From: Psychroserpens jangbogonensis
Lineage (GTDB): Bacteria > Bacteroidota > Bacteroidia > Flavobacteriales > Flavobacteriaceae
Direction of reading: 5' to 3'
DNA length: 64,000 nt
Assembly (NCBI RefSeq): GCF_000797465.1
Contig: NZ_JSWG01000015.1
Location: 62,001-126,000, forward strand
In this document: positions 6,902-38,319 of the stretch, in pieces
Position numbering within the stretch: the first letter of the stretch is position 1
Layout of the letters: each line of letters starts with the position of its first letter
Made by a program: the position numbers and the translations under genes
The notes under the pieces: model-generated
Seen by the model: only the letters and a program-made list of their open reading frames with translations
The model's database searches: none
What the model was told of the DNA's origin: nothing

Positions 6902-6945
6902 ATGATAAATGTCATTTTTATTGCCATATCTAGACCTTACCTTTG
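6902..6945 (+). promoter_or_regulatory. Crp/Fnr-type box and -7 element, universal stress protein promoter
   Basis: Palindrome ATGATAAATGTCAT (6902-6915), then 22 nt, then TACCTTTG (6938-6945), a match to the Bacteroidota TAnnTTTG. No -33 TTTG exists at the usual distance, so the promoter should need an activator bound near -41.5. It drives the gene starting at 7014 with a leader of about 65 nt. Confidence 0.8.
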
Positions 6946-7013
6946 ACTAATAATTAAAGGTTTATTTGCCATTAATGGTGAATAATTATAACACAAACAC
7001 TAAATTTTAAATC

Positions 7014-7847
7014 ATGAAAAAAATAATCGTACCAATTGATTTTTCTCAATATTCTGAATTTGCACTTGAAACTGCTGCAATTATGGCAAAGAAAAATGAT
7101 GCCGAAATAATTGCATTACATATGTTAGAAATGTCTACCAATATGCTAGTAGATTCTGGAGATGACCAACAAATGCAAACGGTATTCTTTTTGAAACTTG
7201 CTGAAAAGAAATTTAATGAGTTTCTAGAAAGAGACTATTTAAAAGACGTGAAAGTCACACCTGTTGTAAAACACTTTAAAGTGTTTCGCGAAGTCAATGA
7301 TGTAGCTACAGAACACAATGCAGATTTAATTGTGATGGGTTCTCATGGCGCTAGTGGTCTTTCCGAAATTTTTGTAGGATCAAATACCGAAAAGGTAGTA
7401 AGACATTCTGTTGTTCCTGTGCTTATCGTTAAGCAAAAACCAGTGAATGTTCAGTTTGAAACTGTTGTTTTCGCTTGTGATTTTTCAGAAGCAATGATTG
7501 AACCTTACGTGAAAGCATGTCAGTTTTTTGAAAATTCAAATTCTAACTTGAAACTCTTATATGTAAACTTACCAGGAGAGCGTTTTAAAAACTCTGCTGA
7601 AATGGAATCTACAGTAGCGAAGTTTCTAGAAAAGGTTGATGGTAATTTAAATAAGATAAATGACATCCATTACATTTCAGATTATACAGTTGAAGATGGT
7701 GTACTAGCATTTGCTAATCTTATTGGAGCTGATTTAATTGCTGTACCAACGCATGGACGACGAGGGATTTCTCATTTCTTTAGCGGAAGTATAGGTGAAG
7801 ATATTGCGAATCATTCTACCTTACCAGTGATTACATTTAAAATATAA
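7014..7847 (+). CDS. Tandem universal stress protein
   Basis: 277 residues with two Usp domains (about 1-142 and 147-277). Domain one has the ATP-binding signature GSHGASGLSEIFVGS (G-2x-G-9x-G-S). Domain two has a weaker version, THGRRGISHFFSGS, preceded by Pro instead of Gly. Cytoplasmic nucleotide-binding stress protein. The Fnr-type promoter suggests induction when oxygen falls, like many Usp genes of anaerobic regulons. It converges on the CBS gene across a shared terminator. Confidence 0.9.
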   Translation: MKKIIVPIDFSQYSEFALETAAIMAKKNDAEIIALHMLEMSTNMLVDSGDDQQMQTVFFLKLAEKKFNEFLERDYLKDVKVTPVVKHFKVFREVNDVATEHNADLIVMGSHGASGLSEIFVGSNTEKVVRHSVVPVLIVKQKPVNVQFETVVFACDFSEAMIEPYVKACQFFENSNSNLKLLYVNLPGERFKNSAEMESTVAKFLEKVDGNLNKINDIHYISDYTVEDGVLAFANLIGADLIAVPTHGRRGISHFFSGSIGEDIANHSTLPVITFKI

Positions 7848-7866
7848 ATACATAAAGTAAGCGCAT

Positions 7867-7898
7867 AAAAAAAGAGTTAGGAAACTAACTCTTTTTTT
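7867..7898. terminator. Bidirectional terminator
   Basis: A 14-bp perfect stem (AAAAAAAGAGTTAG / CTAACTCTTTTTTT) with a GAAA tetraloop between the convergent universal stress protein and CBS genes. T runs on both strands. Confidence 0.93.
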
Positions 7899-7917
7899 AA
7901 TGTTTAACGGTTAAGGT

Positions 7918-8337
7918 TTAAAATTGTTCAATCAAAAAGTTGATTAAATCTGTACTGGTTACAATACCTACAAGTTCACCATTGTCTACAACAGGTAGGG
8001 CATGAAACTCATTTTTAGTTATTATTCCTGCAACCTCCTTAATGCTCGTTTCTGAATTTACAGTCACTACATTTTTAGACATCACTTGATCAATTGTAAA
8101 CATATTGTATACAACAGTATCGACTTCTGTTTCATCTTCATTTAATGCATCAGCAAAACTAATTCGTAATAAATCAGTATAGCTTAACATTCCAATAATA
8201 ACGTCTCCTGATACGACAGGAATATGTCTAATATGGTGTTGTTTGAATAGTGTTTCGGCAGTCTCTAAATCGTCTGTTCTATTTACTGCAATAATATCTT
8301 TGGTCATTATAGTTGACACTGGCATACGCTTTCTCAT
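7918..8337 (-). CDS. CBS-domain pair protein
   Basis: 139 residues, essentially two CBS repeats (MTKDIIAVNRTDDLETAETLF..., then MSKNVVTVNSETSIKEVAGII...). Stand-alone CBS pairs bind adenine nucleotides and act as energy sensors. The start is close to a -7-like TATCTTTA (8371 down to 8364) placed 22 nt from the palindrome at 8394-8407, so it is probably co-activated with the divergent gene, which itself ends in CBS repeats. The target of this small regulator is unknown. Confidence 0.88.
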   Translation of the reverse strand: MRKRMPVSTIMTKDIIAVNRTDDLETAETLFKQHHIRHIPVVSGDVIIGMLSYTDLLRISFADALNEDETEVDTVVYNMFTIDQVMSKNVVTVNSETSIKEVAGIITKNEFHALPVVDNGELVGIVTSTDLINFLIEQF

Positions 8338-8363
8338 AATGGTTTAGGTTTTAATTTCTATAC

Positions 8364-8437
8364 TAAAGATACCCATATACGCTACTCGAAACTATGATAA
8401 AAGTCATAATTCCTGCGTACCTAATACATTAACTTTG
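8364..8437. promoter_or_regulatory. Divergent promoter pair sharing one Crp/Fnr-type box
   Basis: ATGATAAAAGTCAT (8394-8407). On the plus strand TAACTTTG (8430-8437) starts 22 nt after the box; on the minus strand TATCTTTA (8371-8364) starts 22 nt from the other edge. The plus -7 element overlaps a potential TTG codon at 8435, which argues that translation starts at ATG 8456. One regulator dimer could switch both genes on. Confidence 0.8.
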
Positions 8438-8455
8438 AGATATTGTATCAATACT

Positions 8456-10318
8456 ATGGGATCACAATCGGTAATACCAATAACAACTAATGCTCAGAGA
8501 AAGCAGTTTATAAATCATTTGCTAAATGATATAGAAGCGCTGGACATGATGATTAAATCTGATGCCTTCGAAAAAGGGGTTCAGCGTATTGGTGCCGAAC
8601 AAGAACTTTGTATTGTAGATAAGTATTACAGACCTTCCTTTAATGCCTTAGAAATTTTAGAAAAAATTAATGACCCTCACTTTACTACAGAGTTGGGTCT
8701 TTTTAATGTAGAGGCTAACCTTGATCCTCTAGTCTTAAAGGAAAACTGCTTTACACAATTAGAAAAAGACCTCTGTGATTTAATTGATAAAGCACACCAA
8801 GCTGCGGAAGCTATAGATTATAACAAAATCATTCTTACCGGAATTTTACCAACGTTTAAACGAAAGGATCTTGTGTTTGAAAACATGACGCCTCACCAAC
8901 GTTATAAAGTGCTCAATGATGTAATGAAGAAGGTGAGAGGTAACGATTTTAGAGTGAAAGTAAGAGGTGTAGACGAGCTGATTCTAGATCACGAATCTAT
9001 TTTATTTGAAGCTTGTAATACCAGCTTTCAAGTCCACCTCCAAATTGATTTAGAGAATATTGTAGATCAGTATAATTGGTCGCAAGCAATTGCTGGACCT
9101 GTATTATCTGTGATGACGAATTCGCCAATGCTTTTAGGACGAGAGTTGTGGAGTGAAACGCGAATTGCTTTATTTCAGCAGAGTATAGATTTAAGAAACA
9201 CGTCTCAATTACTAAGAGAACAAAAAGCGCGAGTAAACTTCGGAAACAATTGGATTAAAGATTCTATTTTAGAAGTGTTTACAGATGACGTTGCACGATA
9301 TGCACCTTTAGTGACTGCCGATTTATCTGGCAATCCTATTGATGATTTAAAAAACGGAATTAAACCAGATCTTAAAGCGATTGGCTTACATAATGGAACC
9401 TTGTACAAATGGAATAGAGTCTGTTATGGTGTTCATAAAAATGTCGCACATCTACGTATTGAAAATAGATACATTCCTTCTGGTCCAAGCATAAAAGATG
9501 AAATTGCTAACGCGATGTTTTGGGTTGGTACCATGTTAGGAATGCCAGACGATTGTAAATCGATTTGGAAACGCATGGAATTTAAAGATGCCAAAGGAAA
9601 TTTTATCAAAGCAGCACGAACTGGTTTGGATACCTATTTCAATTGGTTTGGTAGTGGTATTTCAGCAAAGAAATTGATAAAACTTGTCTTGTTGCCAATG
9701 GCTCACGACGGGCTTTTAAAAGCGAATGTAGATCTAAAAGATATTGAGTTTTATCTCAATATCATCAAAGAACGTGTTGATAAAAATACAACTGGTAGCA
9801 AGTGGTTAGTAAGAAGTAGTAGAATGCTACAAGAAACGGTTTCTAGAGAAGAGGCCAATATATTATTAGCCTATCACATGCATAAAAACCAGCAGGAAAA
9901 TTTACCTGTTAGTAAATGGGAATTAGCGAAACCTTTAGCGAGGAAAGACGCAAATTCTAGTAATAAAGTACATAAGGTAATGTCTACTCAGATTTTTACA
10001 GTTCATGAAAATGATTCAGTGCGCCTTATTAAAAACATCATGCTTTGGAAAGATATTCATCACATTCCTGTGATTAATACGAATCATAAAATCGTTGGAA
10101 TTATTTCAGCAAGTGATATTTCTGATTTGGATAAGTTTGATGATTACTCTGCATCTCAAGTGATGCAAAAAGAAATTAAAACTGCAATTCCAGACATGCT
10201 TATTGAAGATGCTAAGTCTTTAATGATTGAACATAAAATACGCTGTTTACCAATTGTTGATCATAATGAATTAGTAGGCATAATTACCAAAACAGATTTA
10301 GAAAAAATTAATTTATAG
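8456..10318 (+). CDS. GCS2-type carboxylate-amine ligase fused to a CBS pair
   Basis: 620 residues from ATG 8456; an in-frame TTG at 8435 lies inside the -7 element and is rejected as the start. Residues ~25-480 are a glutamate-cysteine ligase (GCS2) type domain: GAEQELCIVD, FNVEANLDPL and ENRYIPSGPS mark the Mg-ATP and substrate cleft. The C-terminal ~120 residues are two CBS repeats (VMSTQIFTVHENDSV, VMQKEIKTAIPDML). It would form a gamma-glutamyl or other amide bond with ATP, gated by adenylate charge through the CBS pair. Followed after 2 nt by an aspartoacylase-like hydrolase, so the two probably act on related amides. Substrate unknown. Confidence 0.85.
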   Translation: MGSQSVIPITTNAQRKQFINHLLNDIEALDMMIKSDAFEKGVQRIGAEQELCIVDKYYRPSFNALEILEKINDPHFTTELGLFNVEANLDPLVLKENCFTQLEKDLCDLIDKAHQAAEAIDYNKIILTGILPTFKRKDLVFENMTPHQRYKVLNDVMKKVRGNDFRVKVRGVDELILDHESILFEACNTSFQVHLQIDLENIVDQYNWSQAIAGPVLSVMTNSPMLLGRELWSETRIALFQQSIDLRNTSQLLREQKARVNFGNNWIKDSILEVFTDDVARYAPLVTADLSGNPIDDLKNGIKPDLKAIGLHNGTLYKWNRVCYGVHKNVAHLRIENRYIPSGPSIKDEIANAMFWVGTMLGMPDDCKSIWKRMEFKDAKGNFIKAARTGLDTYFNWFGSGISAKKLIKLVLLPMAHDGLLKANVDLKDIEFYLNIIKERVDKNTTGSKWLVRSSRMLQETVSREEANILLAYHMHKNQQENLPVSKWELAKPLARKDANSSNKVHKVMSTQIFTVHENDSVRLIKNIMLWKDIHHIPVINTNHKIVGIISASDISDLDKFDDYSASQVMQKEIKTAIPDMLIEDAKSLMIEHKIRCLPIVDHNELVGIITKTDLEKINL

Positions 10319-10320
10319 CC

Positions 10321-11484
10321 ATGATAAAAGAAGCTACCAAACCCTTAACCTATATGGTTAAAGATAGAATTTTCTATAGCCAGAATAATGATGTCAATGG
10401 CACTACAGTAATATGTGTTGGTGGTATTCATGGTAATGAACCAGCAGGTGTTTATGGTTTGCAAAAAGTGATTAGTGATATTATCGTAAATAATATTACC
10501 ATTAAAGGTAATTTTTATGCCTTACTAGGTAATATGAATGCTTTGAAAACGAGCATGCGTTATAAAGACTTTGACCTTAATAGGCTATGGACAAAAGATG
10601 AAATCGAGTCCTTAGATGATGACGATGATTTTTTTGAGTTTGAAGAGAAGAAAGAACAGCATGAATTATATAATACTATTAAAGATATTTGTAATACTAA
10701 TAATGGTGATTTTGTATTTGTAGATTTACATACCACATCGTCTCCAACAGTTCCTTTTATAACCATTAGTGACTCACTTAATAATAGAGGTTTAGCCAAT
10801 AAGTTTAATATTCCTATTGTTTTGGGTATTGAAGAATATTTAGATGGACCATTGCTGTCTTATATCAACGAATTTGGTCATATATCTGTAGGTTTTGAAG
10901 CTGGTCAGCACGATGATGAAAATTCTATATTGTATTGTGAAGCTTTTGTTTGGATGGTTATGGAAAAACTAGGCATGGTATCAAAAGACCAATTTGCCTA
11001 TAAAAGTTCGAATAGATTACTGACCATTGAAAATGGTTTTTACGAAATTATTTATAGACATTCTTTATCTGAATCTAATCAGTTTAAGATGAAACCTGGT
11101 TTCAAGAATTTCAAACCTGTAATGAAACATCAATCTCTAGCTTATAATGGTAGTAGCGAAGTGAAAAGCCCATTTACCGGATTGATTTTTATGCCATTGT
11201 ATCAAAAGCAAGGTGAGGATGGCTTTTTTGTAGTTCGGAAATTATCCAAGTTCTGGCTAATACTATCTAAAGTATTGAGAAGTTTGAAGTTCCATCAATT
11301 TTTAAGACTACTTCCTGGTATTAACAAACATCCAGAAAATGATTATTGTCTCGTTGCAAACCGAAGAATAGCGTTGTTTTTAACGACTAAAATATTTCAT
11401 TTATTCGGCTATAGAAAGAAGATTATTATAGAGGATAAAATTCACTTTATAAAACGTGACCGAAAAGTAACGCCTTTTAGTTAA
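10321..11484 (+). CDS. Succinylglutamate desuccinylase/aspartoacylase-family zinc hydrolase
   Basis: 387 residues. Zinc ligands H and E in GGIHGNEPAG (about residues 37-46) and the third His in VDLHTTSSP place it in the M14-like AstE/AspA family, which cleaves N-acyl amino acids. The C-terminal third contains a beta-barrel-like domain (SPFTGLIFMPLYQKQGEDGFF) and a basic tail. It is translated directly after the GCS2-CBS gene (2-nt gap) and ends 3 nt before the convergent PPOx gene. No arginine-catabolism genes are nearby, so a role with the amide ligase is more likely than classical AstE activity. Confidence 0.82.
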   Translation: MIKEATKPLTYMVKDRIFYSQNNDVNGTTVICVGGIHGNEPAGVYGLQKVISDIIVNNITIKGNFYALLGNMNALKTSMRYKDFDLNRLWTKDEIESLDDDDDFFEFEEKKEQHELYNTIKDICNTNNGDFVFVDLHTTSSPTVPFITISDSLNNRGLANKFNIPIVLGIEEYLDGPLLSYINEFGHISVGFEAGQHDDENSILYCEAFVWMVMEKLGMVSKDQFAYKSSNRLLTIENGFYEIIYRHSLSESNQFKMKPGFKNFKPVMKHQSLAYNGSSEVKSPFTGLIFMPLYQKQGEDGFFVVRKLSKFWLILSKVLRSLKFHQFLRLLPGINKHPENDYCLVANRRIALFLTTKIFHLFGYRKKIIIEDKIHFIKRDRKVTPFS

Positions 11485-11487
11485 CGC

Positions 11488-11937
11488 TTATTTTCGTCGC
11501 TTTTTCCCAGTGATGTCTTCAATATTTATTACAAATACAATTGGAATATCATTCTTAGCAATTTTTGCTGAAAACTCACTGATAAAGTTCAAATCTCTGT
11601 GCTCCTTATTCATTATAATATCTTTGATTCCTAATGAGAAATCATGGAGTAATGCCTTCGCTGTACTGCCATCAAATTCTTCATAACTGCCATGTATAGC
11701 TATAGATTTCCACTGGTTTACAGAATCAATTTCTGAAACTTCCATTGTAATTGGCGCATGTTTACGCATGGCAATAATTTTATGGCCTTCACCAGAATAA
11801 CAAATTATTCTATTGTCTTTATAGAAATACGTAATAGGAATGACATAAGGTCTGTTTCTATAGATATAAGCTAAATGACCAATGTAGTTGTGTCTTAAAA
11901 CAATTTCGCATTCTTCTCTGTCTAAACTCTTAATCAT
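11488..11937 (-). CDS. Pyridoxamine 5'-phosphate oxidase-family FMN-binding protein
   Basis: 149 residues with the split beta-barrel pattern of small PPOx-like proteins (GHLAYIYRNRPYVIPITYFY near the N-terminus, then IICYSGEGHKI). These bind FMN or F420/heme; several members are induced by low oxygen or NO. Second gene of a unit after the universal stress protein (12-nt gap), hence probably driven by the same Fnr-type promoter. Substrate unknown. Confidence 0.8.
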   Translation of the reverse strand: MIKSLDREECEIVLRHNYIGHLAYIYRNRPYVIPITYFYKDNRIICYSGEGHKIIAMRKHAPITMEVSEIDSVNQWKSIAIHGSYEEFDGSTAKALLHDFSLGIKDIIMNKEHRDLNFISEFSAKIAKNDIPIVFVINIEDITGKKRRK

Positions 11938-11949
11938 CGTATTAAAGTT

Positions 11950-12783
11950 TTAAATTAATGTTCTGCTGTGGAATATCATTAAAGGTAATTTGATAACCTT
12001 ACTTAATTCTATAGTTGGCGACTCCGTAAAGAATCGTTTTATAAAGGATTTATCATGAACAATTAAGCCAGTCATATCAATTGCATTCGATTTGAGATAA
12101 TTGGTTACGGCTTGATAAAATGTAGATTCTTCTTCAACAGAATACTTACAATTAAACTTATCTAGTCGATCTTGATCACTGGTAATGCTATTGGTAGTTT
12201 CGTTTTTAGCGCATACTCTCAAGACATGTAGTTTGAGTTCATATTTTTTAGTGAAGTCGCTTATGATGTCTAACTGTTCACTTGGTACGTTGTCATCAAA
12301 CTGTAAAGGCAATAAGAAATTAGAGATGGGTTTAAACGTATAGTCATTTGGTACAACCAGCGTTTTACACATGACTTGTCTAATCACATTAATGGCATTG
12401 CTACCAAAAACCACTTCTTTCGCACCTGTTGCTCCATTAGATCCCATAACAACATAATCAATGTTATTACGTTTTACGGCTTGGTTGATTGCATCTGTAA
12501 ACACATCAAAATCAACAATAATTTCGAATTTATGATTTGGGTTATGATACGTTTGTTTTAATTCGTCTACAAGTGCATTTAGTTTTTGCTTAGGAATTTT
12601 TGTAAATGAATCATAGATACTTTCCGTAGGAGAGATCATCAAATCGTCAGAAATAAATGTCCCAGCTTTATGCACATTCATGACATGAAAAACACATGTT
12701 TTAGATTCGAAAAAGCGCATAGCATAATGGATGGCATTAGTTGCGCAATTGGAAAAGTCTGTAAGTAATAGAATAGTTTTCAT
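11950..12783 (-). CDS. Tandem universal stress protein
   Basis: 277 residues, two Usp domains. The first carries MGSNGATGAKEVVFGSN, an intact G-2x-G-9x-G-S ATP motif; the second has lost it (VHDKSFIKRFFTESP). Diverged paralogue of the protein at 7014, same length. It has its own Fnr-type promoter and leads into the PPOx gene. Role: cytoplasmic stress protein, probably in oxygen limitation. Confidence 0.88.
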   Translation of the reverse strand: MKTILLLTDFSNCATNAIHYAMRFFESKTCVFHVMNVHKAGTFISDDLMISPTESIYDSFTKIPKQKLNALVDELKQTYHNPNHKFEIIVDFDVFTDAINQAVKRNNIDYVVMGSNGATGAKEVVFGSNAINVIRQVMCKTLVVPNDYTFKPISNFLLPLQFDDNVPSEQLDIISDFTKKYELKLHVLRVCAKNETTNSITSDQDRLDKFNCKYSVEEESTFYQAVTNYLKSNAIDMTGLIVHDKSFIKRFFTESPTIELSKVIKLPLMIFHSRTLI

Positions 12784-12802
12784 TTGTGTTGTTCCTATTA
12801 AC

Positions 12803-12846
12803 TAAAGTTACAGAAATACACGGTAAAGAACTATGACGAATGTCAG
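12803..12846 (-). promoter_or_regulatory. Crp/Fnr-type box and -7 element for second universal stress protein
   Basis: ATGACGAATGTCAG (12833-12846), one base off the palindrome, with TAACTTTA (12810 down to 12803) exactly 22 nt away on the minus strand. Leader of about 15-19 nt to the ATG at 12783. Confidence 0.7.
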
Positions 12847-12870
12847 TTTAATATTTAGAATAAATAAAGT

Positions 12871-13572
12871 CTAATGACAATCTACAGCACTAGTAGCAAC
12901 GTCAACAATTGGAGAAGGAGAGAGGTAAGGTATGCCTAATCCCATACCACGAATAATGAAAAGTAAACCGATTATGACAACAAACACAGGAATGGCTTTT
13001 TGAATGCGTTGTTTAACTTTTGAATTTAAAAACTTCCCTAAATAAATAGCAGTCGTCATCAACGGAATGGTTCCTACACCAAATAGCATCATGTATAAGC
13101 CGCTCTCTAAAGCATTTGGCATAGTTAACGATGCAAAAACAGCCATATATACCAAACCACATGGCAAAAATCCATTTAGAAAGCCTATCGTTAAAAACGT
13201 ATCTGCAGTTTTCTTTTTTAAAGCTTTACCTAATGATGATTTTACTTTTGAAATGACTTTATATAAAGGTTTAGAAAAATTGTATTTATTAAAAGTTTGA
13301 ACAGGAATAAGGACGACAATAATCATTAAGATTCCAATAATAATAGATAGTTGCTGTTGTATTCCGAAGATGTAGAGACTTTTACCAATAAGCCCAAAGC
13401 CGAAACCTATTAACGCATAAGCTAATAATCGACCTAAGTGATACGTTAAAATTTGAGAGATTTTTCTAAAGGAGTTACTTCTGTCTACAGGTAGCATAAA
13501 GGCAATAGGACCACACATTCCAACACAATGGAAACTACCTAATAAACCAAATATGATTGCAGACCAAAGCAC
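12871..13572 (-). CDS. SafE/TauE-like membrane protein of the cbb3 operon
   Basis: 233 residues, about six transmembrane segments, start GTG (13572) immediately after the ccoH stop. The first helix carries HCVGMCGP and another has FLPCGLVYMA, the conserved Cys pairs of the DsbD-transmembrane/SafE family found beside cbb3 and heavy-metal ATPase genes. The usual interpretation is a role in copper or redox handling for oxidase assembly. The C-terminus ends in DCH. Last gene of the cco operon; its function is not proven. Confidence 0.8.
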   Translation of the reverse strand: MLWSAIIFGLLGSFHCVGMCGPIAFMLPVDRSNSFRKISQILTYHLGRLLAYALIGFGFGLIGKSLYIFGIQQQLSIIIGILMIIVVLIPVQTFNKYNFSKPLYKVISKVKSSLGKALKKKTADTFLTIGFLNGFLPCGLVYMAVFASLTMPNALESGLYMMLFGVGTIPLMTTAIYLGKFLNSKVKQRIQKAIPVFVVIIGLLFIIRGMGLGIPYLSPSPIVDVATSAVDCH

Positions 13573-14019: not shown

Positions 14020-14032
14020 AACCTTATGACTT

Positions 14033-15457: not shown

Positions 15458-15510
15458 GATAATCTTATTTTGAGGCTTAGCAGATATTAATCTGTAAAGT
15501 CAATAAAAAA

Positions 15511-16601: not shown

Positions 16602-16607
16602 GATAAA

Positions 16608-18797: not shown

Positions 18798-18807
18798 AAT
18801 AATTTAA

Positions 18808-18993
18808 TTAGTCTTTTTTTGATTTAACAGATGGTTTTGGTTGCTCTTTAACGAGTTCGTCTTCAAAAAGCATTCTAACAGAAGGTGTATAACTATCATC
18901 ATACTGTCCACTTTTTACAGCTGCTATAAACGCTATAAAAAACAAGATTGCTACGATAATACTGATACTTAATAAAATATATATAACACTCAT
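18808..18993 (-). CDS. ccoS: CcoS, cbb3 maturation protein
   Basis: 61 residues with one N-terminal transmembrane helix (IYILLSISIIVAILFFIAF) and the downstream VKSGQYDD motif characteristic of CcoS/FixS. Needed for cofactor insertion. First gene of the operon behind a perfect Fnr-type promoter. Confidence 0.92.
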   Translation of the reverse strand: MSVIYILLSISIIVAILFFIAFIAAVKSGQYDDSYTPSVRMLFEDELVKEQPKPSVKSKKD

Positions 18994-19014: not shown

Positions 19015-19058
19015 CAAAATTACATTGGTTTGCACTTATATAATATGACAAATGTCAT
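19015..19058 (-). promoter_or_regulatory. Crp/Fnr-type promoter of the cco operon
   Basis: ATGACAAATGTCAT (19045-19058, symmetric for three more bases on each side) with TAATTTTG (19022 down to 19015) 22 nt away. Leader of about 17-20 nt to ccoS. No -33 element, so expression should depend on the activator. Confidence 0.88.
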
Positions 19059-22836: not shown

Positions 22837-22910
22837 CAAAGGTTAACAAAGAGTGTGATTTAAACTATGATTTTTGTCATGTTTTTAGTATTTTTGAAGA
22901 TATAGATTTT
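22837..22910. promoter_or_regulatory. Shared ccoI / fnr control region
   Basis: Box ATGATTTTTGTCAT (22867-22880). Minus side: AACCTTTG (22844-22837) at the standard 22 nt for ccoI. Plus side: TAGATTTT (22903-22910) at 22 nt, and a better -7 match TATTTTTG (22889-22896) only 8 nt away. If the latter is the true fnr promoter the box would lie near -26 and repress it; if the former is used the fnr message is almost leaderless. Confidence 0.72.
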
Positions 22911-22917: not shown

Positions 22918-23595
22918 ATGAGTAGATGTGAACAGTGCATCGTAAGAGAATTTAATTCATTAAAAGCTCTGACGAAAGAGGAATTGCTTCGAATTTCTGG
23001 ATGTAAAACATCTAGATTTGTAAAAAAAGGCGAAGTTATTTTTGAGGAAGGAGAAACCATTAATGGTGTCTATTGTGTAAAAGATGGTATTTGCAAATTA
23101 TCAAAGCTAAGTGCTAATGGCAAGGACCAAATTGTAAAATTGGTTGTCAAGGGTGACTTATTAGGGCAACGTTCATTGGTTGGAGATGAATCGGCAAATT
23201 TAAGCGCAGTTGCACTTAATGATATGGAAGTTTGTTTTATTCCTAAGAGAGAAATCATGGGAGACCTTCAAAACAATCCTAAATTCACAATGGAAGTTTT
23301 AAGGAACATGGCTAAAGATCTAAAGGATTCTGAAGACATTATTGTTAATATGGCTCAGAAATCAGTTAGAGAACGATTAGCTGATATATTAATATATATA
23401 CATAATAGTTTTGGAGTTGATGATGATGGTTATTTAAGTGTGGTTTTGTCAAGAGAAGACTATGCTAATGTTGTTGGAACTGCTACAGAATCTGCTATTA
23501 GGATACTTTCACAATTTAAAAAGGAAAGTTTAATTTCTACTAAAGGCAAAAGGATAAAGTTAGAAAATATTGAAGGATTAAGACGTATCGAATAA
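22918..23595 (+). CDS. Crp/Fnr-family regulator, probable oxygen sensor of this region
   Basis: 225 residues. Cyclic-nucleotide-fold sensor (~20-140), long helix, winged helix C-terminus (SREDYANVVGTATESAIR as recognition region). The N-terminus has C4 and C7, then C29, C53 and C59, so Fe-S ligands like those of Fnr are available, though the exact set is unclear. E-x3-R in TESAIR matches residues that read TGA half-sites in Crp/Fnr proteins, as found in ATGAYA. Placed between ccoI and the nos/nir genes, all of which carry that box. A cAMP-like or heme-type (Dnr) sensor remains possible. Confidence 0.88.
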   Translation: MSRCEQCIVREFNSLKALTKEELLRISGCKTSRFVKKGEVIFEEGETINGVYCVKDGICKLSKLSANGKDQIVKLVVKGDLLGQRSLVGDESANLSAVALNDMEVCFIPKREIMGDLQNNPKFTMEVLRNMAKDLKDSEDIIVNMAQKSVRERLADILIYIHNSFGVDDDGYLSVVLSREDYANVVGTATESAIRILSQFKKESLISTKGKRIKLENIEGLRRIE

Positions 23596-27040: not shown

Positions 27041-27084
27041 ATGATATTTATCATATTTATTACTGTGAAAGGCAACTATTTTTG
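27041..27084 (+). promoter_or_regulatory. Crp/Fnr-type promoter of the nos operon
   Basis: ATGATATTTATCAT (27041-27054), symmetric for four further bases on each side, then TATTTTTG (27077-27084) after 22 nt. Leader about 16-19 nt to the cytochrome gene at 27104. The most symmetric box in the window. Confidence 0.9.
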
Positions 27085-27607: not shown

Positions 27608-27613
27608 ATAATT

Positions 27614-28189: not shown

Positions 28190-28215
28190 AACACTAATTA
28201 AATTTAAAAGAAAAC

Positions 28216-30186: not shown

Positions 30187-30235
30187 ATTATTTAGAATTA
30201 GGGAGATTTTGTTTTAGTGTTTATTTCCCTATATC

Positions 30236-30273
30236 AAAGGCGAGAGTTAACTTTTGCTCTCGCCTTTATTTTT
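30236..30273 (+). terminator. Terminator or attenuator after nosZ
   Basis: A perfect 11-bp GC-rich stem (AAAGGCGAGAG / CTCTCGCCTTT), 10-nt loop, then A plus six T. Lies between nosZ and the accessory genes with no obvious new promoter, so partial readthrough is expected. Confidence 0.88.
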
Positions 30274-30307
30274 TAAAACACTAATAAAACTACTAAATCT
30301 TTTTACG

Positions 30308-30907: not shown

Positions 30908-30938
30908 GCAAAAATCAAAACACTAAAACACTAAAATC

Positions 30939-31376: not shown

Positions 31377-31380
31377 TTTC

Positions 31381-32616
31381 ATGAAAACTGTATTCATTTT
31401 TTTGTCCGTCATTTTTATGACCAATTCTTCTTATGCACTTCAACTAGAAGTTTGTAAAAGTTGTCCTATTTCAACAATTCAAGATGCTATAAATCAAGCA
31501 AAAGACTTTGACACTATTATGGTGAAAAAAGGCACTTATAAGGAGCATGATATTTTAGTGAACAAGCCCTTGACTATTATTGGTGAGGACTACCCAGTTA
31601 TTGATGGTGAATTAAAAGGAGAGATCATTACTGTTATATCAGATAATGTAACCGTTGATGGTTTGTTTATAATCAATGTAGGTACAAGTTATACAGAAGA
31701 TTATGCAGCTATTCGTGTTAGAAGAAGCAAACATTTTGAGATCAAAAATTTAGTACTAGAAAAGCTGTTTTTCGGAATATATATCGAGAAGTCTAGCTAC
31801 GGAAAAGTATTTCATAATAAGATTATTGGTGATGCCATTGAGGAGTATAACTCCGGAAATGGAATACAACTCTGGTATAGTCACCATATCGAAATTGAGC
31901 ATAACTATGTGGAGCATGTTCGGGATGGTATATATTTAGAGTTTTCAGACGATTGTCTAATAAAAAATAATGTGAGTGCTTTAAACCTAAGGTATGGTTT
32001 ACACTTTATGTTCTCTAATGATGATATCTATCAAGACAATACATTTGAAAACAATGGAGCAGGAGTAGCTGTGATGTTTTCTAAGAAAATTAAAATGTTA
32101 AACAACATATTTAAAGAAAACTGGGGAACAGCTTCTTATGGATTACTCTTGAAAGAAATAAATGATGCCGAAATTATTGGTAATACTTTTGAAGAAAACA
32201 CAATTGGGATTAATATTGAAGGGTCTAACCGAATCATATATAAAAACAACAATTTCAAAAATAACGGTTGGGCTATAAAAGTACGTGGCGCATGTTATAC
32301 CAACCAATTTGTCGAAAATAATTTTCTGTATAACTCATTTGATATTGCTTACAATAGTAAGGTTAATGATAACGTGTTTGATGGAAACTATTGGAGCAAT
32401 TATACTGGCTACGACTTAGATAAAGACGGAGTAGGAGATATTCCTTACAGACCTGTAAAACTGTTTTCTTATATTGTAAATCGTACACCAGAAACTATCA
32501 TTTTATTACGAAGTATGTTTATAGATATTATTGATTTTTCTGAAAAAGTGTCACCTGTTTTTACACCAGATGACCTCTTGGATAATCACCCACTAACAAA
32601 GAAAGTAACATGGTAA
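31381..32616 (+). CDS. nosD: NosD periplasmic right-handed beta-helix protein
   Basis: 411 residues, signal peptide to about residue 20, then many parallel beta-helix (PbH1) turns with N-rich repeats (HNKIIGDAI, NNIFKENWGT, NTFEENTIGINIEG) and the conserved end YWSNYTGYDLDKDGVGDIPY. Receives copper from NosL and loads NosZ. Its 3' end overlaps nosF by 7 nt. Confidence 0.96.
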   Translation: MKTVFIFLSVIFMTNSSYALQLEVCKSCPISTIQDAINQAKDFDTIMVKKGTYKEHDILVNKPLTIIGEDYPVIDGELKGEIITVISDNVTVDGLFIINVGTSYTEDYAAIRVRRSKHFEIKNLVLEKLFFGIYIEKSSYGKVFHNKIIGDAIEEYNSGNGIQLWYSHHIEIEHNYVEHVRDGIYLEFSDDCLIKNNVSALNLRYGLHFMFSNDDIYQDNTFENNGAGVAVMFSKKIKMLNNIFKENWGTASYGLLLKEINDAEIIGNTFEENTIGINIEGSNRIIYKNNNFKNNGWAIKVRGACYTNQFVENNFLYNSFDIAYNSKVNDNVFDGNYWSNYTGYDLDKDGVGDIPYRPVKLFSYIVNRTPETIILLRSMFIDIIDFSEKVSPVFTPDDLLDNHPLTKKVTW

Positions 32617-33317
32617 ATATTGAAAATTTACATAAAAAATTTGGAAAGAACCAAGTATTAAGTGGTTTAGATTTAACGATTAATGAAGGTGGCATTTTCG
32701 CAGTACTTGGGCCAAACGGTTCGGGTAAAACAACATTAATTAAGTCTATTCTTGGTATGGTTATTCCTAACAAAGGAGTGATTAATGTCTTGGGAGAAAA
32801 CATAAAGAAAAATTCAAACTATCGACACAAAATTGACTATTTACCACAAATCGCCAATTTTCCAAGCAACCTAAAAGTTAAGGAGTTGATTAAAATGATC
32901 AAAGACCTACGTAAAAATACCAATGAAGATCAACGGTTAATTGAACTATTTAAATTAGAGCCTTTTTTAGATAAAAAATTAGGAAACCTCTCAGGAGGAA
33001 CCAAACAAAAAGTGAATATCGTTTTGACGTTTATGTTCGATAGTCCACTTATTATTTTAGATGAACCAACAACTGGATTAGATCCAATTTCCTTAATTCG
33101 TTTGAAAGATTTGATTCAAGCAGAAAAAGCTAAAGGAAAGACCATTTTAATCACATCTCATATTATGAGTTTTGTGGAAGAAGTTTCAGATGAAATCGTC
33201 TTCTTACTAGAAGGCAAGATTTACTTCAGAGGTTCAATTTCAGAATTAAAAACCAAGACCAATCAGCCAGATTTTGAACATGCTATTGCGTCTATATTAA
33301 CCGATAACCATGCTTAA
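32610..33317 (+). CDS. nosF: NosF ABC transporter ATPase
   Basis: 235 residues: Walker A GPNGSGKTT, Q-loop YLPQ, signature LSGGTKQK, Walker B LIILDEPTTGLD, H-loop TSHIMS. Powers the NosDFY complex for NosZ maturation. Overlaps nosD and nosY, implying translational coupling. Confidence 0.96.
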   Translation: MVNIENLHKKFGKNQVLSGLDLTINEGGIFAVLGPNGSGKTTLIKSILGMVIPNKGVINVLGENIKKNSNYRHKIDYLPQIANFPSNLKVKELIKMIKDLRKNTNEDQRLIELFKLEPFLDKKLGNLSGGTKQKVNIVLTFMFDSPLIILDEPTTGLDPISLIRLKDLIQAEKAKGKTILITSHIMSFVEEVSDEIVFLLEGKIYFRGSISELKTKTNQPDFEHAIASILTDNHA

Positions 33318-34092
33318 AATATTAAAATATAGTTTTTTTGATTTAATGCGTAGTCGTTGGAGTTACGTCTATTTTGCATTCTATTTACTATTAGGACTTG
33401 TTCTATTGTTTTTGAATAACGATTTATCAAAAGCTGTCATCACGTTAATGAATGTGATTATTGTTTTGGTTCCTTTAATAGGAACCATTTTTGGAGTCAT
33501 GTATTATTACAATTCTAAGGAGTTTACCGAACTTCTTTTAGCACAACCTTTAAAACGGTCTTCAATATTTCTTGGACAGTATTTAGGTGTTGCTTTGTCA
33601 CTCTCAATTAGTTTAGTTCTCGGACTAGGAATCCCTTTTGTATTCTATGGTTTGTTTGAAAGTAGTGCTATTTGGGATTTTTCATTACTGCTAATAACAG
33701 GTACATTTCTAACCTTAATTTTCACGGCTTTAGCATTTAATATTGCGTTGTCAAATGAGAATAGAATTAAAGGCTTTGGCTATGCAATCTTATTATGGTT
33801 GTTTTTAGCAATTATTTACGATGGCTTATTTTTAATGACCTTAATTATGTTTGAAGATTACCCTCTTGACAAATTATCGTTAGTTGGTACCATGTTGAAT
33901 CCTATAGATTTATCACGAACACTTATTCTTTTAAAATTAGATATTTCGGCATTATTAGGATATACAGGTGCTATCTTTAAGCAATTCTTCGGAACTAGTT
34001 TTGGTCTTATTGTATCTTTTGTTATGTTAACGGTTTGGGTGGTATTACCTGTGTTGAGAATTGTGTTTAAATCACGAAAGAAAGATTTTTAG
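33310..34092 (+). CDS. nosY: NosY ABC transporter permease
   Basis: 260 residues with six predicted transmembrane helices and the NosY-type FTELLLAQPLKRSSIFLGQYLG cytoplasmic loop region (seen from about residue 75). Membrane partner of NosF and NosD. Overlaps nosF by 8 nt. Confidence 0.94.
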   Translation: MLKILKYSFFDLMRSRWSYVYFAFYLLLGLVLLFLNNDLSKAVITLMNVIIVLVPLIGTIFGVMYYYNSKEFTELLLAQPLKRSSIFLGQYLGVALSLSISLVLGLGIPFVFYGLFESSAIWDFSLLLITGTFLTLIFTALAFNIALSNENRIKGFGYAILLWLFLAIIYDGLFLMTLIMFEDYPLDKLSLVGTMLNPIDLSRTLILLKLDISALLGYTGAIFKQFFGTSFGLIVSFVMLTVWVVLPVLRIVFKSRKKDF

Positions 34093-34113
34093 AATTAATA
34101 AATAAAATTGAAT

Positions 34114-34566
34114 ATGAAAAAGGTTTTTGTAATTGGATGTTTTCTAATTTTTATGATTGGTTGTAAAAGCGAAACAAAAAAGGTGAATTCTAAACAGGGT
34201 TCTGATGTAGAAACAATTTCAATTGTGGATACTTTATCACTTAAATTGAATGCTACTGAAAAGTGGATTGCGAATGCAGAAACACATGAAGGCATTACAA
34301 AAATGGATTCCATTATTTCAGCATTCAAAACAGAAGATTTAAGCGATTATAAAACCTTAGGTAAGACCCTTTCAAAGCAAACGGGATATATCATTAAACA
34401 TTGCAGTATGAAAGGTGAACCACATGATCAATTGCATGTGGTGTTAATTCCTATGCTTGATGAAATATCAGTTTTAAGAGAGGAAAAAAATATTGAGAAA
34501 ACTCAATCTGCACTTGATAATCTAGAACTGTTAATAGGAGCTTATTTTAAGTTCTTTAAAGTATGA
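34114..34566 (+). CDS. Lipoprotein downstream of nosY
   Basis: 150 residues from ATG 34114; an in-frame TTG six bases upstream gives no gain. Lipobox MIGC. The mature domain is helical, about 100 residues, with HCSMKGEPHDQLHV (His/Cys/Met-rich) in its centre, which could bind heme or copper. No named family recognised. It closes the nos operon and probably serves copper or electron delivery; this is inference from place and residues. Confidence 0.7.
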   Translation: MKKVFVIGCFLIFMIGCKSETKKVNSKQGSDVETISIVDTLSLKLNATEKWIANAETHEGITKMDSIISAFKTEDLSDYKTLGKTLSKQTGYIIKHCSMKGEPHDQLHVVLIPMLDEISVLREEKNIEKTQSALDNLELLIGAYFKFFKV

Positions 34567-34606
34567 TATTAGTCATATTTTTTACAATAACATAGTCTTA
34601 GATTTG
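34563..34606 (+). promoter_or_regulatory. Crp/Fnr-type promoter of the copper-uptake module
   Basis: ATGATATTAGTCAT (34563-34576) overlaps the stop of the preceding gene; TAGATTTG (34599-34606) follows after 22 nt. The next ATG (34614) is only 7 nt beyond, so the transcript would have almost no leader. Confidence 0.82.
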
Positions 34607-34613
34607 CGGTACG

Positions 34614-35006
34614 ATGACTGCGATAGTTCATAAAATAACAGTATTTGTTTTAGTATTTATATTATTTGCCCATAATATAAATACACTTGCTATTGTTGGT
34701 GATTTCATGATTAATCAAGAGTTCATTGCAAAAACTTTATGTATTCAAAAAGAGGAGCAAAAAGGATGTAATGGTAAATGTCAATTGCGTAAAGAATTAT
34801 CTGAAAGTAATACCAATTCAAACTCTGAAACACCACTTCAAGAAAACAAAAGACTGATTTTAGATGCTTTTTTTATCTCAACTATTAGTCAAGTTGATAC
34901 GTCTGATTTAGAGTCTCAATCAAGACGACATGAATTGATTAAGAATACACCAAAAATAATTAAAATGTATCTCGAAATAGATACACCTCCACCAAATTTC
35001 TGTTAG
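34614..35006 (+). CDS. Small Cys-motif protein of the copper module
   Basis: 130 residues. N-terminal hydrophobic segment (signal or anchor, residues ~8-28), then CIQKEEQKGCNGKCQLRKEL with three cysteines (C-x8-C-x3-C), a polar linker and a Cys at the very end. Comparable small proteins with a CNGKC core sit beside copper TonB receptors and nos genes in Flavobacteriaceae, as far as I recall. A copper ligand role is plausible; no enzymatic domain seen. Confidence 0.72.
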   Translation: MTAIVHKITVFVLVFILFAHNINTLAIVGDFMINQEFIAKTLCIQKEEQKGCNGKCQLRKELSESNTNSNSETPLQENKRLILDAFFISTISQVDTSDLESQSRRHELIKNTPKIIKMYLEIDTPPPNFC

Positions 35007-35109
35007 TTTTTTAAATTATAAAATCTGTTCGATTTTACTCTAGTTCTTGCTTGTATAAACAAGTGAGCAAGGGGTTTTAAGTCTTATTTTAAATATTAAA
35101 GCTAACATT

Positions 35110-35973
35110 ATGAAATCAATTAAATTTATATATATACTATTACCAATATTGTTTTTATCAGTACTAACAACATCTTGTTCTTCAGATGACGATGATGACG
35201 ATCCTATAATCACTAACGAAGTTGAAGGGCTTTCAAAGATTCTAGACCTAACTAATGCAACCCATACAGTTGAATTATTTAATAAAGAAGGAGATTTTTA
35301 TACAGGCTATAACGCAATTAGTATAAGATTAAAAGACAATGCAACAGACGCATACATCGAAGATGCTTCATTCTCATGGATGCCAATGATGCAAATGCCA
35401 ACAATGCAACACTCTTCCCCAAGATCTGCAATTATAAAAGCTTCAGGAAAAAATACAGTTTTTGAAGGTTATATTATATATCAAATGACAAATACAGATG
35501 GTTCTGGTTGGTCTTTAACAGTCAACTATACTATTGATGGTGTAGATTATACAGCAAGTGATGCTATAACTGTGAGACAAAATGACAATCAAAACGTTAC
35601 TAGTTTCATGGGTAGTGATGATAGTCGTTATATCATATCACTTATCAAACCAAATAATCCAATTATTGGAATCAATGATTTAATGGTCGGTGTTCACAAA
35701 ATGGAAAACATGATGACATTTCCAGTTGTAGAAAATTATTCAATTGCATTAGATCCAAGAATGCCAGGTATGGGCAATCACAGCTCACCTAATAATACAG
35801 ATTTGAATTATAGTATGGTAGATGACATGTATCATGCAGATTTATCTTTAACTATGACAGGTTATTGGGTTCTTAATTTGAAGTTCATGAATACCAATGA
35901 CGATGTGCTTAAAGGAGAAAATGTAACCGATGAGAACACACAAAGTTCTCTGTATTTAGAATTAGAATTCTAA
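35110..35973 (+). CDS. Met-rich YtkA/FixH-like lipoprotein, probable copper binder
   Basis: 287 residues. Lipobox TTSC then SSDDDDDD. Two similar beta-sandwich halves of YtkA-like type: the first has FSWMPMMQMPTMQHSSP (about residues 88-104), the second DPRMPGMGNHSSPN and MTGYWVLNLKF. Paired Met/His clusters like these bind Cu(I)/Cu(II). Placed between the Cys-motif protein and the TonB receptor; likely passes copper at the outer membrane. Confidence 0.78.
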   Translation: MKSIKFIYILLPILFLSVLTTSCSSDDDDDDPIITNEVEGLSKILDLTNATHTVELFNKEGDFYTGYNAISIRLKDNATDAYIEDASFSWMPMMQMPTMQHSSPRSAIIKASGKNTVFEGYIIYQMTNTDGSGWSLTVNYTIDGVDYTASDAITVRQNDNQNVTSFMGSDDSRYIISLIKPNNPIIGINDLMVGVHKMENMMTFPVVENYSIALDPRMPGMGNHSSPNNTDLNYSMVDDMYHADLSLTMTGYWVLNLKFMNTNDDVLKGENVTDENTQSSLYLELEF

Positions 35974-35982
35974 ATGCTTACC

Positions 35983-36013
35983 AATAGCTAAATAAAGCTA
36001 TTCCATTTTTTTT
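35983..36013 (+). terminator. Probable terminator before the TonB receptor
   Basis: AATAGCT / AGCTATT (7 bp, 6-nt loop) followed by CCA and a run of eight T. Partial readthrough into the receptor gene is likely. Confidence 0.65.
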
Positions 36014-36067
36014 CTGTCAATTTTGAGTGTGGTTTATTCAAAACGGTTAACCACACTCAAAAGACAG
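36014..36067 (+). promoter_or_regulatory. Long hairpin in the 5' region of the TonB receptor
   Basis: TTTTGAGTGTGGTT (36021-36034) pairs perfectly with AACCACACTCAAAA (36049-36062), extended by CTGTC/GACAG across a 2-nt bulge: 19 bp in total with a 14-nt loop. No T run follows on either strand, so it is not a normal terminator. It ends 23 nt before the receptor ATG and may control its translation or mRNA stability. Confidence 0.65.
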
Positions 36068-36090
36068 TTCATTTTCTAAACATTGTATTA

Positions 36091-38088
36091 ATGAAAAAGC
36101 TCACCATATATAGTATTTGTATACTCTTTAGTGGATTTATATTCGCTCAAAAAGAGGAACCTGTTGTTGAAAAAGATACAACAAGGTTAACTGAAGTTAT
36201 CGTTATCGGTAAACGTAGATTAAGTAATCATCGACAAGAAAAGACCTTGTCTAGTATTGATGATTATCTTGAAAAATCTAATAAAGTAGCCATGATAAAA
36301 CGTGGTAATTATGCATGGGAACCTACAATAAATAACATGAATAGTGAACGGTTGAATATCACTATTGATGGCATGCAAATTTTTGGTGCATGTACAGACA
36401 AAATGGACCCAATTACATCTTATGTTGATGTGTCTAATCTTGAAAAAGTAAGTGTTGGTTCTGGGCAAAATGGTACCGAAAACGGACATTGCGTAGGAGG
36501 TGGTATTGATTTACAACTGCCTTCAAGCAAGTTTTATCAATCTGGATTTAAAACGAACTTCGATTTGGGTTATGAGACAAATGGAAACTATAGAGTTGGA
36601 GGTTTAGATGTGGAATATTCTGGAAATACTTTTTACATAAATACTGATGGTATTTTTAGAAAATCAGATAATTATGACGCAGGAGGAAATGATGAGGTTT
36701 TGTATTCTCAATTTCAAAAGTATAACATCTCAATGCAAACAGGTTTTAAGCTTTCTGAAAAGCACGCCATAGATGCGAATATCATTTATGATAAAGCGAC
36801 TGATGTTGGTTATCCTGCTTTGCCAATGGATGTGTCTTTAGCTGAAGCATTAATAACTTCCGTAACCCATAATTATGTAAGCGATTCTACCTTTATAAAT
36901 ACTTTAGAAACGAAGCTTTATTTTAACACAATCACGCATATTATGGACGATTCTAATCGTCCAGATGTGCCAATTCGAATGGATATGCCAGGTTGGAGCG
37001 ATACATATGGGTTTTATTCTAAAGCGACAAGTACGATTAAAAGACACAATTTACTATTTAATGTCAATGGATATTATAATCGATCGTTAGCAGAAATGAC
37101 GATGTACCCAAATGATTCTAGTCAACCAGCAATGTTTATGTATACCTGGCCTGATATTAGAACGTTTTATACAGGGATTTTTGCAAAAGATATATTTGTA
37201 TTAAGTGAAAATGAACAACTCTCAGGTTCATTACGTTTAGGTTATCATAATAATAGAATAGCTGAAGATGTAGGTTTAGAAAGCCTACAAATATTTTATC
37301 CTGATATTGAAGATTCAAAAAGTAGGTTTCTAACGAGTATATCTTCAAACTATAATTATAAAACAACTAACTACGATGTGTCTTTTGGGTTGGGTTATGG
37401 AGAGAGAGCTCCATCTGTAAGTGAAGGCTATGGTTTTTTCTTATTTAATAGTTTTGATAATTATGACTACATAGGAAATCCTACACTAGATAATGAAAAA
37501 GCTATCGAAGTCAATGCTGGAGCTAATTATCATAAAGGTAAATTTCATATTGGCGTAGAGGCGTCTTATTTTTATATTATGGATTATATTATTGGCGAGA
37601 TCGATGAGACTCTAACGTCTATGACTATTGGTGCTAATGGTGTTAGAATTTATGAAGCTTTACCAAATGCCTCAATATTTGATGTGTATTTAAACTCTAG
37701 TTATGAATTATCAAACTCCTTTTCAATTAATGGAACTATTGGTTATAATTATGGACAAGGTAGCAATGATGAAAATTTACCACTGATAAGACCATTTACT
37801 TTTTTAGCTGAAGTAAATTATAAAGCTAAACGATTTAATGCCGCAATTCAATTGGAAGGTAACGGAAACCAAAGTAGTTATAGTAGTTATTATGGCGAAG
37901 ATGAAACACCTTCTTATGGTGTGTTAAACCTTAATTTTGGAAATGTATACCATGCAAAGGACACTAAATTCTTTTTAAAATATGGAGTAGAAAATATCTT
38001 AGATACTAACTATTCTACATTTGCAGATTGGAATAATATTCCTAGACAAGGGCGCAATTTTTATATGAACCTATCTTTAATTCTGTAA
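36091..38088 (+). CDS. TonB-dependent copper receptor, NosA/OprC-like
   Basis: 665 residues. Signal peptide to FAQ (about 20), plug domain with LNITIDGMQIFGACTDKMDP: the ACTDKMDP stretch holds the CxxxM pair that binds copper in OprC/NosA receptors. A 22-strand barrel ends with the usual aromatic-hydrophobic C-terminus. NosA was found as an outer-membrane protein needed for copper-loaded N2O reductase. Here it ends the module 34.6-38.1 kb. Uptake substrate is inferred from the motif and the neighbours. Confidence 0.85.
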   Translation: MKKLTIYSICILFSGFIFAQKEEPVVEKDTTRLTEVIVIGKRRLSNHRQEKTLSSIDDYLEKSNKVAMIKRGNYAWEPTINNMNSERLNITIDGMQIFGACTDKMDPITSYVDVSNLEKVSVGSGQNGTENGHCVGGGIDLQLPSSKFYQSGFKTNFDLGYETNGNYRVGGLDVEYSGNTFYINTDGIFRKSDNYDAGGNDEVLYSQFQKYNISMQTGFKLSEKHAIDANIIYDKATDVGYPALPMDVSLAEALITSVTHNYVSDSTFINTLETKLYFNTITHIMDDSNRPDVPIRMDMPGWSDTYGFYSKATSTIKRHNLLFNVNGYYNRSLAEMTMYPNDSSQPAMFMYTWPDIRTFYTGIFAKDIFVLSENEQLSGSLRLGYHNNRIAEDVGLESLQIFYPDIEDSKSRFLTSISSNYNYKTTNYDVSFGLGYGERAPSVSEGYGFFLFNSFDNYDYIGNPTLDNEKAIEVNAGANYHKGKFHIGVEASYFYIMDYIIGEIDETLTSMTIGANGVRIYEALPNASIFDVYLNSSYELSNSFSINGTIGYNYGQGSNDENLPLIRPFTFLAEVNYKAKRFNAAIQLEGNGNQSSYSSYYGEDETPSYGVLNLNFGNVYHAKDTKFFLKYGVENILDTNYSTFADWNNIPRQGRNFYMNLSLIL

Positions 38089-38117
38089 AAATGGAGTGAG
38101 TAATGATAAACTTATAC

Positions 38118-38192
38118 TAATTATGGACTAAATTTTATTTATAGAGTATGCACTAAATAAATTTTCGTTGGTTGGCATATTGTCCATAGTTA
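38118..38192 (+). repeat. Nested hairpin in the 313-bp gap before nirK
   Basis: TAATTATGGAC (38118-38128) pairs with GTCCATAGTTA (38182-38192), one G-U; inside, TAAATTTTATTTA (38129-38141) pairs with TAAATAAATTT (38154-38164) across a bulge. AACTTTTTCT follows, so it may terminate the TonB receptor transcript. The rest of the gap holds the nirK promoter. Confidence 0.5.
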
Positions 38193-38275
38193 AGAACTTT
38201 TTCTAAGTCTAAGGTGAAAGATTATTAATCCAAATAATTCTTCCTTTTTGTTATGCGTATTATTTTTTTGAAAGT

Positions 38276-38319
38276 GTGATAAAAGTCATGTTTTTAGAAA
38301 AGTCATTATACTATTTTTG
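38276..38319 (+). promoter_or_regulatory. Crp/Fnr-type promoter of nirK
   Basis: GTGATAAAAGTCAT (38276-38289), one base off the palindrome, then TATTTTTG (38312-38319) after 22 nt. Predicted transcription start about 38323-38326, giving a leader near 78 nt. Confidence 0.85.

Follow-up and report, generated by a model that had tools for sequence, protein, structure and literature searches.

Respiratory and denitrification genes in a 64,000-nucleotide (nt) stretch of the genome of Psychroserpens jangbogonensis (contig NZ_JSWG01000015.1, positions 62,001 to 126,000 of the forward strand; hereafter, the window) are preceded by a recurrent promoter element, in which a palindromic box is followed, at exactly 22 nt, by a TAnnTTTG -7 element. 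We consider it probable (roughly 0.82) that these composites represent a Crp/Fnr-dependent class II regulon of Bacteroidota housekeeping-sigma promoters, with the protein encoded at 22918 as the main regulator and a receiver-Crp fusion, encoded elsewhere in the genome, as the second. An earlier note on this DNA had proposed a Crp/Fnr regulon with one box, one spacing and targets in respiration and denitrification, and this proposal is supported both by the rest of the genome and by the family Flavobacteriaceae.

The eight boxes that had been listed (6902, 8394, 12833, 19045, 22867, 27041, 34563 and 38276) are all present, and all ten -7 readings claimed at 22 nt from a box edge were found when the 16 box sides were rechecked. 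At this offset, TAnnTTTG is perfect on six sides (6902+, 8394+, 27041+, 34563+, 38276+ and 19045-) and has one mismatch on four (8394-, 12833-, 22867+ and 22867-). If elements are scored by their matches to the six fixed bases of TAnnTTTG, offset 22 carries at least 5/6 on 10 of the 16 sides, and each of the other offsets from 0 to 49 does so on one side at most. In 200 random windows generated with a first-order Markov model, strict boxes (TGAY-N4-RTCA) with such an element at offset 22 occurred 0.11 times on average and never more than once, against 10 in the real sequence. The box consensus is ATGAY-N4-RTCAT, often with nTTTW next to it; this form fits six of the eight boxes (12833 and 38276 deviate at one outer base), whereas the longer ATGAYA-N2-TRTCAT, as originally printed, is exact in three. 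Five strict boxes absent from the original list (30681, 32021, 35822, 37112 and 40751) all lie inside listed reading frames, and on neither side does their score at offset 22 exceed 3/6. With likely start codons, the predicted leaders measure 14 to 78 nt in nine of the ten promoters and 3 nt at 34563.

The same spacing stands out beyond the window. A scan of the whole genome (3.63 Mb), in which TGAY-N4-RTCA had to be followed by a perfect TAnnTTTG and 31 spacings were allowed between the two, returned 35 composites, against 17 in the reversed control; in 15 of the 35, six inside the window and nine outside, the spacing is exactly 22. Across 120 genomes of Flavobacteriaceae, 916 perfect composites were found at spacing 22 and 18 in the reversed control. 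The eleven spacings from 11 to 21 jointly gave 451 composites (274 reversed), or about 41 each, so that spacing 22 lies about 22-fold above the mean of those neighbours, which are the family-wide comparison used here. False composites are thus expected in about one of every seven genomes according to the reversed control, or one of every three according to the neighbouring spacings. In a separate sample of 198 genomes from the phylum, spacing-22 matches numbered 175 (control 4) in 19 genomes of the same family, 16 (control 0) in two of the same order, 91 (control 7) in 28 of the same class and, by a hand count, 58 (control 7) in the remaining 149. The composite would make the low-oxygen regulon readable in any genome.

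Conservation at orthologous promoters was followed in 80 regulator loci of named relatives (L042-L121), where 173 box+22 sites of at least 5/6 were found: 78 before ccoNO, 77 before ccoI and 18 others. The ccoS-ccoNO promoter keeps the site in 78 of the 80 loci, always with a perfect TAnnTTTG, and the ccoI promoter keeps it, with at least 5/6, in 77, one of them perfect. At ccoI, 74 of 75 boxed loci have another base in place of the first T of the -7 element, and the conserved contrast with the ccoS promoter would mean that the two core promoters differ in strength. Among 30 family loci fetched with NosZ, own locus included, 29 have a perfect site, the exception (L183) being a shorter stretch. 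Family conservation backs the membership in the regulon claimed earlier for cco, ccoI and nos, and the composite is poorly kept at the CBS gene at 8456. In the family, nosZ is carried by 56 of the 120 genomes, which gives these bacteria the capacity to consume nitrous oxide. Pooling of the sites also gave a side peak at offset 45 (67 sites with 5/6, none perfect); it was rejected as a second spacing, as 64 of the 67 lie downstream of a box that already has its -7 element at 22; in the six cases inspected, the matching sequence surrounds the start codon of ccoS.

The constant distance has a direct geometric reading. Start-site data for F. psychrophilum place TAnnTTTG at -12 to -5 (PMC9723704), and, if the same placement holds, offset 22 puts the box centre at -41.5, which agrees with the class II layout suggested in the earlier note. 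E. coli FNR activates 23 promoters whose start is known, and in 19 of them its site is centred within 4 nt of -41.5 (PMC3688515). Class II geometry thus appears to have been retained to the base pair despite a core promoter unlike that of E. coli. The accompanying claim that no -33 motif is present stands in part. Each of 41 perfect nos and nirK sites from relatives has T at offsets 1 and 2 (that is, -33 and -32); T reaches 73% and 82% at the next two, and the mirror positions to the left of the box are A in 75, 56 and 65%. Therefore, TTTG is absent from -33, but a conserved nTTTW, partly an extension of the palindrome, takes its place.

One operator, at 22867, is shared by ccoI and the regulator gene. 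A strict box lies within 200 nt upstream of the regulator in 75 of the 80 loci, and all 75 have the ccoI -7 element at offset 22. On the regulator side, by contrast, none of the 75 keeps a -7 element at that offset, and in 70 an element of at least 5/6 (12 perfect) starts at offset 8. The reading of 22 on both sides of this box consequently holds for ccoI and, although the window itself has a 5/6 element at 22 on the regulator side, fails there as a conserved feature. Two loci that seemed to support offset 22 on the regulator side (L084 and L105) were discarded, as each carries an additional box farther upstream, and what lies 22 nt from that box is the interior of the main one. In the window, the regulator leader would be 17 nt long from the offset-8 element and about 3 nt from the one at 22. 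Since a -7 element that starts at -12 with offset 8 centres the box at -27.5, a place from which a bound protein would obstruct the polymerase, the activation of the regulator gene through this box, as previously claimed, gives way to a repressor position, and a single operator should serve to activate ccoI-hemN and to silence the regulator gene.

The product of the gene at 22918 belongs to the Crp/Fnr superfamily (PF00027, the cNMP-type beta roll, 6e-20; PF13545, the Crp helix-turn-helix, 3e-14). Its predicted fold (model built with 48 relatives; predicted local distance difference test score 76, weak at the N-terminus) is an ordinary Crp/Fnr one that matches the structures of CRP, FNR and, best of all, 2gau from P. 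gingivalis. Its recognition helix retains the E and R that align with those of FNR. The 81 close sequences all share six cysteines, three of which (C4, C7 and C106) have aligned counterparts in FNR. C53 occurs in 12 of 23 distant homologues that are not fused, always together with C4, C7 and C106, and C29 and C59 are not retained; in four others (L224, L251, L255 and L258), position 53 is F and three or four N-terminal cysteines are found instead. This exchange is not clean, as some proteins with C53 have extra N-terminal cysteines and L222 and L254 have F53 without them, and a cluster ligand moved to position 53 is accordingly offered as a hypothesis. The candidate set C4, C7, C53 and C106 is, in any case, unlike that of E. 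coli FNR.

The distribution of regulators follows that of the composites. Close orthologues of the 22918 protein (profile threshold 1e-60; any match was called at 1e-10 or 1e-20) are present in 69 of the 120 family genomes, all of which have composites, with a mean of 9.4. Of the 38 composite-bearing genomes that have no close orthologue, 16, chosen mainly for their many composites, were tested, and 15 have another match to the regulator profile. Altogether, 84 of 85 composite-bearing genomes tested have a match, against none of the 13 composite-free genomes (six tested at 1e-10 and seven at 1e-20; p = 2.6e-15).

The most serious alternative, which we nevertheless consider unlikely, is that the receiver-Crp fusion, with two-component input, is the main or a joint reader of the boxes, the 22918 protein being limited to cco/ccoI and perhaps nos. 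In all 15 matching genomes (nine composite-rich ones searched at 1e-10 and six of seven at 1e-20), a matching frame of 350 to 397 amino acids is present, the same length as the fusion found on contig C61 of the P. jangbogonensis genome, and one of them (G027) has the fusion-length match alone, yet retains a composite before nos. The recognition helices are also similar (TETLIR in the fusion, TESAIR in the 22918 protein), and the P. jangbogonensis fusion is followed by a composite that starts no more than 10 nt from its last codon and then by a universal stress protein (USP) gene. In 10 of 13 fusion loci, a perfect composite lies within 50 nt of the gene end, an eleventh having one of 5/6, and a USP-like gene comes directly after the fusion in nine and about 970 nt further on in a tenth. 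However, the box flavours differ: of 19 sites linked to the fusion, 14 have the outer bases C..T, against A..T in 164 of 173 sites of the cco loci and 32 of 33 of the nos loci, and only one of the eight window boxes (12833) is of the C..T type. Moreover, genomes with a close orthologue of the 22918 protein have more composites, and the receiver domain is assigned by Pfam in one protein (REC, cNMP and HTH_Crp in the P. jangbogonensis fusion) and was read by eye in the other 12 loci. The 22918 protein, named as the controller in the earlier note, can thus be kept as the main regulator, while its control over every box is doubtful, as a fusion with a similar helix adjoins composites; the USP gene at 11950, behind box 12833, may belong to the fusion. 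The fusion locus (L122, about C61:120794-122602) continues with USP genes that have box+22 composites (L038 and L039), and it also holds a 218-amino-acid frame that, by eye, resembles the end of a histidine kinase.

Two other explanations carry far less weight. That the box is a repressor operator everywhere, its spacing reflecting exclusion of the polymerase, agrees with the -27.5 position at the regulator's own promoter and with the overlap between the box and the -33 region. It is nonetheless improbable, as the lack of TTTG at -33 in the target consensus and the lost first T of the ccoI element describe weak core promoters of the kind expected to need an activator, and a repressor would presumably have no need for one exact spacing. 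A composition artefact, in which AT-rich intergenic DNA yields boxes and -7 elements by chance, could draw on the 32.6% G+C of the window and on the strict boxes alone, of which about 5.9 are expected per random window and 13 are seen. Composition leaves unexplained the joint spacing, in the window and across the family, and its conservation at orthologous promoters, and the Markov windows and family scans already refute this explanation, to which we assign a negligible probability.

Several observations weigh against a class II regulon governed mainly by the 22918 protein. Close orthologues are missing from 51 of the 120 family genomes, which still have a mean of 5.2 composites; therefore, other Crp-type proteins must read the box. 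One genome (G048, 82% complete) has nine composites and no match to the regulator profile, and several of the 13 composite-free genomes are small or incomplete, which weakens the co-occurrence. Two homologues from genomes of the same order (L245 in G214 and L247 in G131, with 10 and 6 composites) have the helix TATESAIR and none of the four candidate cysteines, so that an iron-sulfur signal cannot be general; these proteins presumably read the same box in response to another signal. The third N-terminal cysteine of FNR is absent from the 22918 protein itself, and the half-site has A as its outermost base, instead of the T of FNR sites or the G of CRP sites. Conservation is also uneven among targets: in 30 loci fetched with NirK (own locus included; L220 and L221 match NirK only partly), a perfect site is found in 13 and one of at least 5/6 anywhere in the locus in 19, and the CBS gene at 8456 keeps an offset-22 site of at least 5/6 in just 6 of 30 loci, its own included. 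Finally, T occupies -33 and -32 in just five of the nine activated promoters of the window.

Table 1. Predicted promoters and associated genes in the window (positions numbered from its first nucleotide).
Position	Strand	Feature	Context
6902..6945	+	Box 6902-6915, 22 nt, -7 element TACCTTTG at 6938-6945	Predicted start 6950; upstream of USP gene 7014 (Usp domain)
8394..8437	+	Box 8394-8407, 22 nt, -7 element TAACTTTG at 8430-8437	Upstream of CBS-domain protein, likely ATG 8456
8364..8407	-	Box 8394-8407, opposite side, -7 element TATCTTTA at 8371-8364	Upstream of CBS protein 8337-7918
12803..12846	-	Box 12833-12846 (C..T flavour), -7 element TAACTTTA at 12810-12803	Upstream of USP gene 12783-11950
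19015..19058	-	Box 19045-19058, -7 element TAATTTTG at 19022-19015	Upstream of ccoS, ccoNO, cco operon
18808..18993	-	ccoS, 61 amino acids, first gene of the cco operon; under the 80-amino-acid limit of the open reading frame list	PF03597 FixS, 2e-19
22837..22880	-	Box 22867-22880, 22 nt, -7 element AACCTTTG at 22844-22837	Upstream of ccoI (likely ATG 22809) and hemN; predicted activation layout
22867..22896	+	Box 22867-22880, regulator side, -7 element TATTTTTG at 22889-22896, offset 8	Box centre -27.5; predicted autorepression layout
22918..23595	+	Crp/Fnr-type regulator, 225 amino acids	Pfam domains, conserved cysteines
27041..27084	+	Box, 22 nt, -7 element TATTTTTG at 27077-27084	Upstream of cytochrome c gene 27104 and nosZ 28216
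34563..34606	+	Box, 22 nt, -7 element TAGATTTG at 34599-34606	Upstream of 34614, 35110 and TonB-dependent receptor 36091; putative functions
38276..38319	+	Box, 22 nt, -7 element TATTTTTG at 38312-38319	Upstream of nirK 38402

Regarding the genes behind these promoters (Table 1), the small ccoS gene sits between its box and ccoN, and the minus-side layout at 8394 is repeated before a homologue of its CBS protein in two related loci. Of the functional labels in the earlier note, the "GCS2" assignment at 8435 is unconfirmed, as CBS domains alone score in Pfam at 1e-5, and the copper uptake attributed to the genes behind the box at 34563 depends on a match to a TonB-copper family that is under the curated cut-off. 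A 10-bp inverted repeat (AATAGGACAA-AA-TTGTCCTATT, 38327-38348) was noticed by eye in the predicted nirK leader, directly after the predicted start. Nine composites lie outside the window, and their downstream genes were likewise named by eye. Seven of these composites (L017, L020, L028, L033, L035, L036 and L037) include sites before an MlaE-like permease, a formate-tetrahydrofolate ligase-like gene, an OmpW-like porin, a hydrolase and secreted proteins, and L033 has no obvious gene nearby.

In the model that we infer from these features, the Bacteroidota housekeeping sigma factor would use the TAnnTTTG -7 element at promoters that depend on a Crp/Fnr-type activator, whose dimer would bind ATGAY-N4-RTCAT centred at -41.5, overlapping the -33 region, and bring in the polymerase through class II contacts, which involve alpha and sigma. 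As the main regulator, the 22918 protein would act when oxygen falls or nitric oxide rises, perhaps through an iron-sulfur cluster on C4, C7, C53 and C106, and would raise the expression of the cbb3 oxidase with its assembly genes and of the genes for heme synthesis, for the reduction of nitrous oxide and nitrite and for stress proteins. In line with part of this scheme, cbb3 is induced by oxygen limitation in F. psychrophilum (PMC9723704). From the ccoI operator, with the box at -27.5 over the polymerase site, the same protein may shut its own gene, and the receiver-Crp fusion is the probable reader of boxes of the C..T flavour, a set that overlaps with the first and includes some USP promoters. 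More tentatively, a possible extension of this scheme is a Bacteroidota-specific low-oxygen regulon in which two unlike sensors, namely, an FNR variant in which an iron-sulfur ligand has shifted out of the N-terminal loop to the beta roll (C4, C7, C53 and C106) and a kinase-fed receiver-Crp fusion, would share one class II operator grammar, with the outer base A or C discriminating between them and with lineages swapping regulators while keeping their promoters.

Some related observations have been published. A CRP/FNR homologue of Flavobacteriales was filed as MalR-like and assigned to carbon sensing (PMC8510549); that work relied on a Bacteroides MalR matrix, whereas the conserved targets here are respiratory genes. 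The main text of PMC9723704 contains neither "fnr" nor "crp", and a word search of PMC12531629, which deals with the family's DNA-binding domain, returned neither "Bacteroid" nor "Flavobacteri". In the open-access literature searched, no Crp/Fnr regulon that responds to oxygen or nitric oxide and has a defined site was found for Flavobacteriaceae. The novelty of the regulon is thus provisional; in any case, the control network for low oxygen and denitrification of marine flavobacteria and their relatives appears to be readable from DNA alone.

Among known systems, E. coli FNR recognizes TTGAT-N4-ATCAA, with the half-site TTGAT, and holds its oxygen-labile [4Fe-4S] cluster with the cysteines of a C-x2-C-x5-C motif and another in the beta roll. 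The window boxes differ in their ATGAY half-site, with the outer A..T predominance described above, and C-x2-C-x5-C is incomplete in the 22918 protein. The two systems are alike in having a Crp/Fnr activator, a 14-bp palindrome, a centre at -41.5 and targets in anaerobic respiration (PMC3688515), and they differ in that, here, the core is TAnnTTTG instead of -35/-10, the cysteine set is another one and nTTTW often follows the box. Other FNR-like regulators, which respond to nitrogen oxides (HcpR1/HcpR2, DNR and NnrR), were predicted by comparative genomics, and HcpR2 reaches Bacteroides (PMC1274295). According to the same source, HcpR2 has the motif GTAACnnnnGTTAC and hcp as a target, and HcpR, DNR and NnrR proteins are without the FNR cysteine motif (PMC1274295); by contrast, the window box has a different motif, and the 22918 protein keeps three FNR-aligned cysteines and has E in the recognition helix where HcpR2 has Pro.

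Finally, FixK and FnrL of alphaproteobacteria follow the same target logic, as they control the cbb3 oxidase and denitrification. FixK2 is also negatively auto-repressed (PMC9104804). The system described here differs from them in its phylum and its core promoter, as well as in its use of one operator, back to back, for the assembly operon and the regulator gene.

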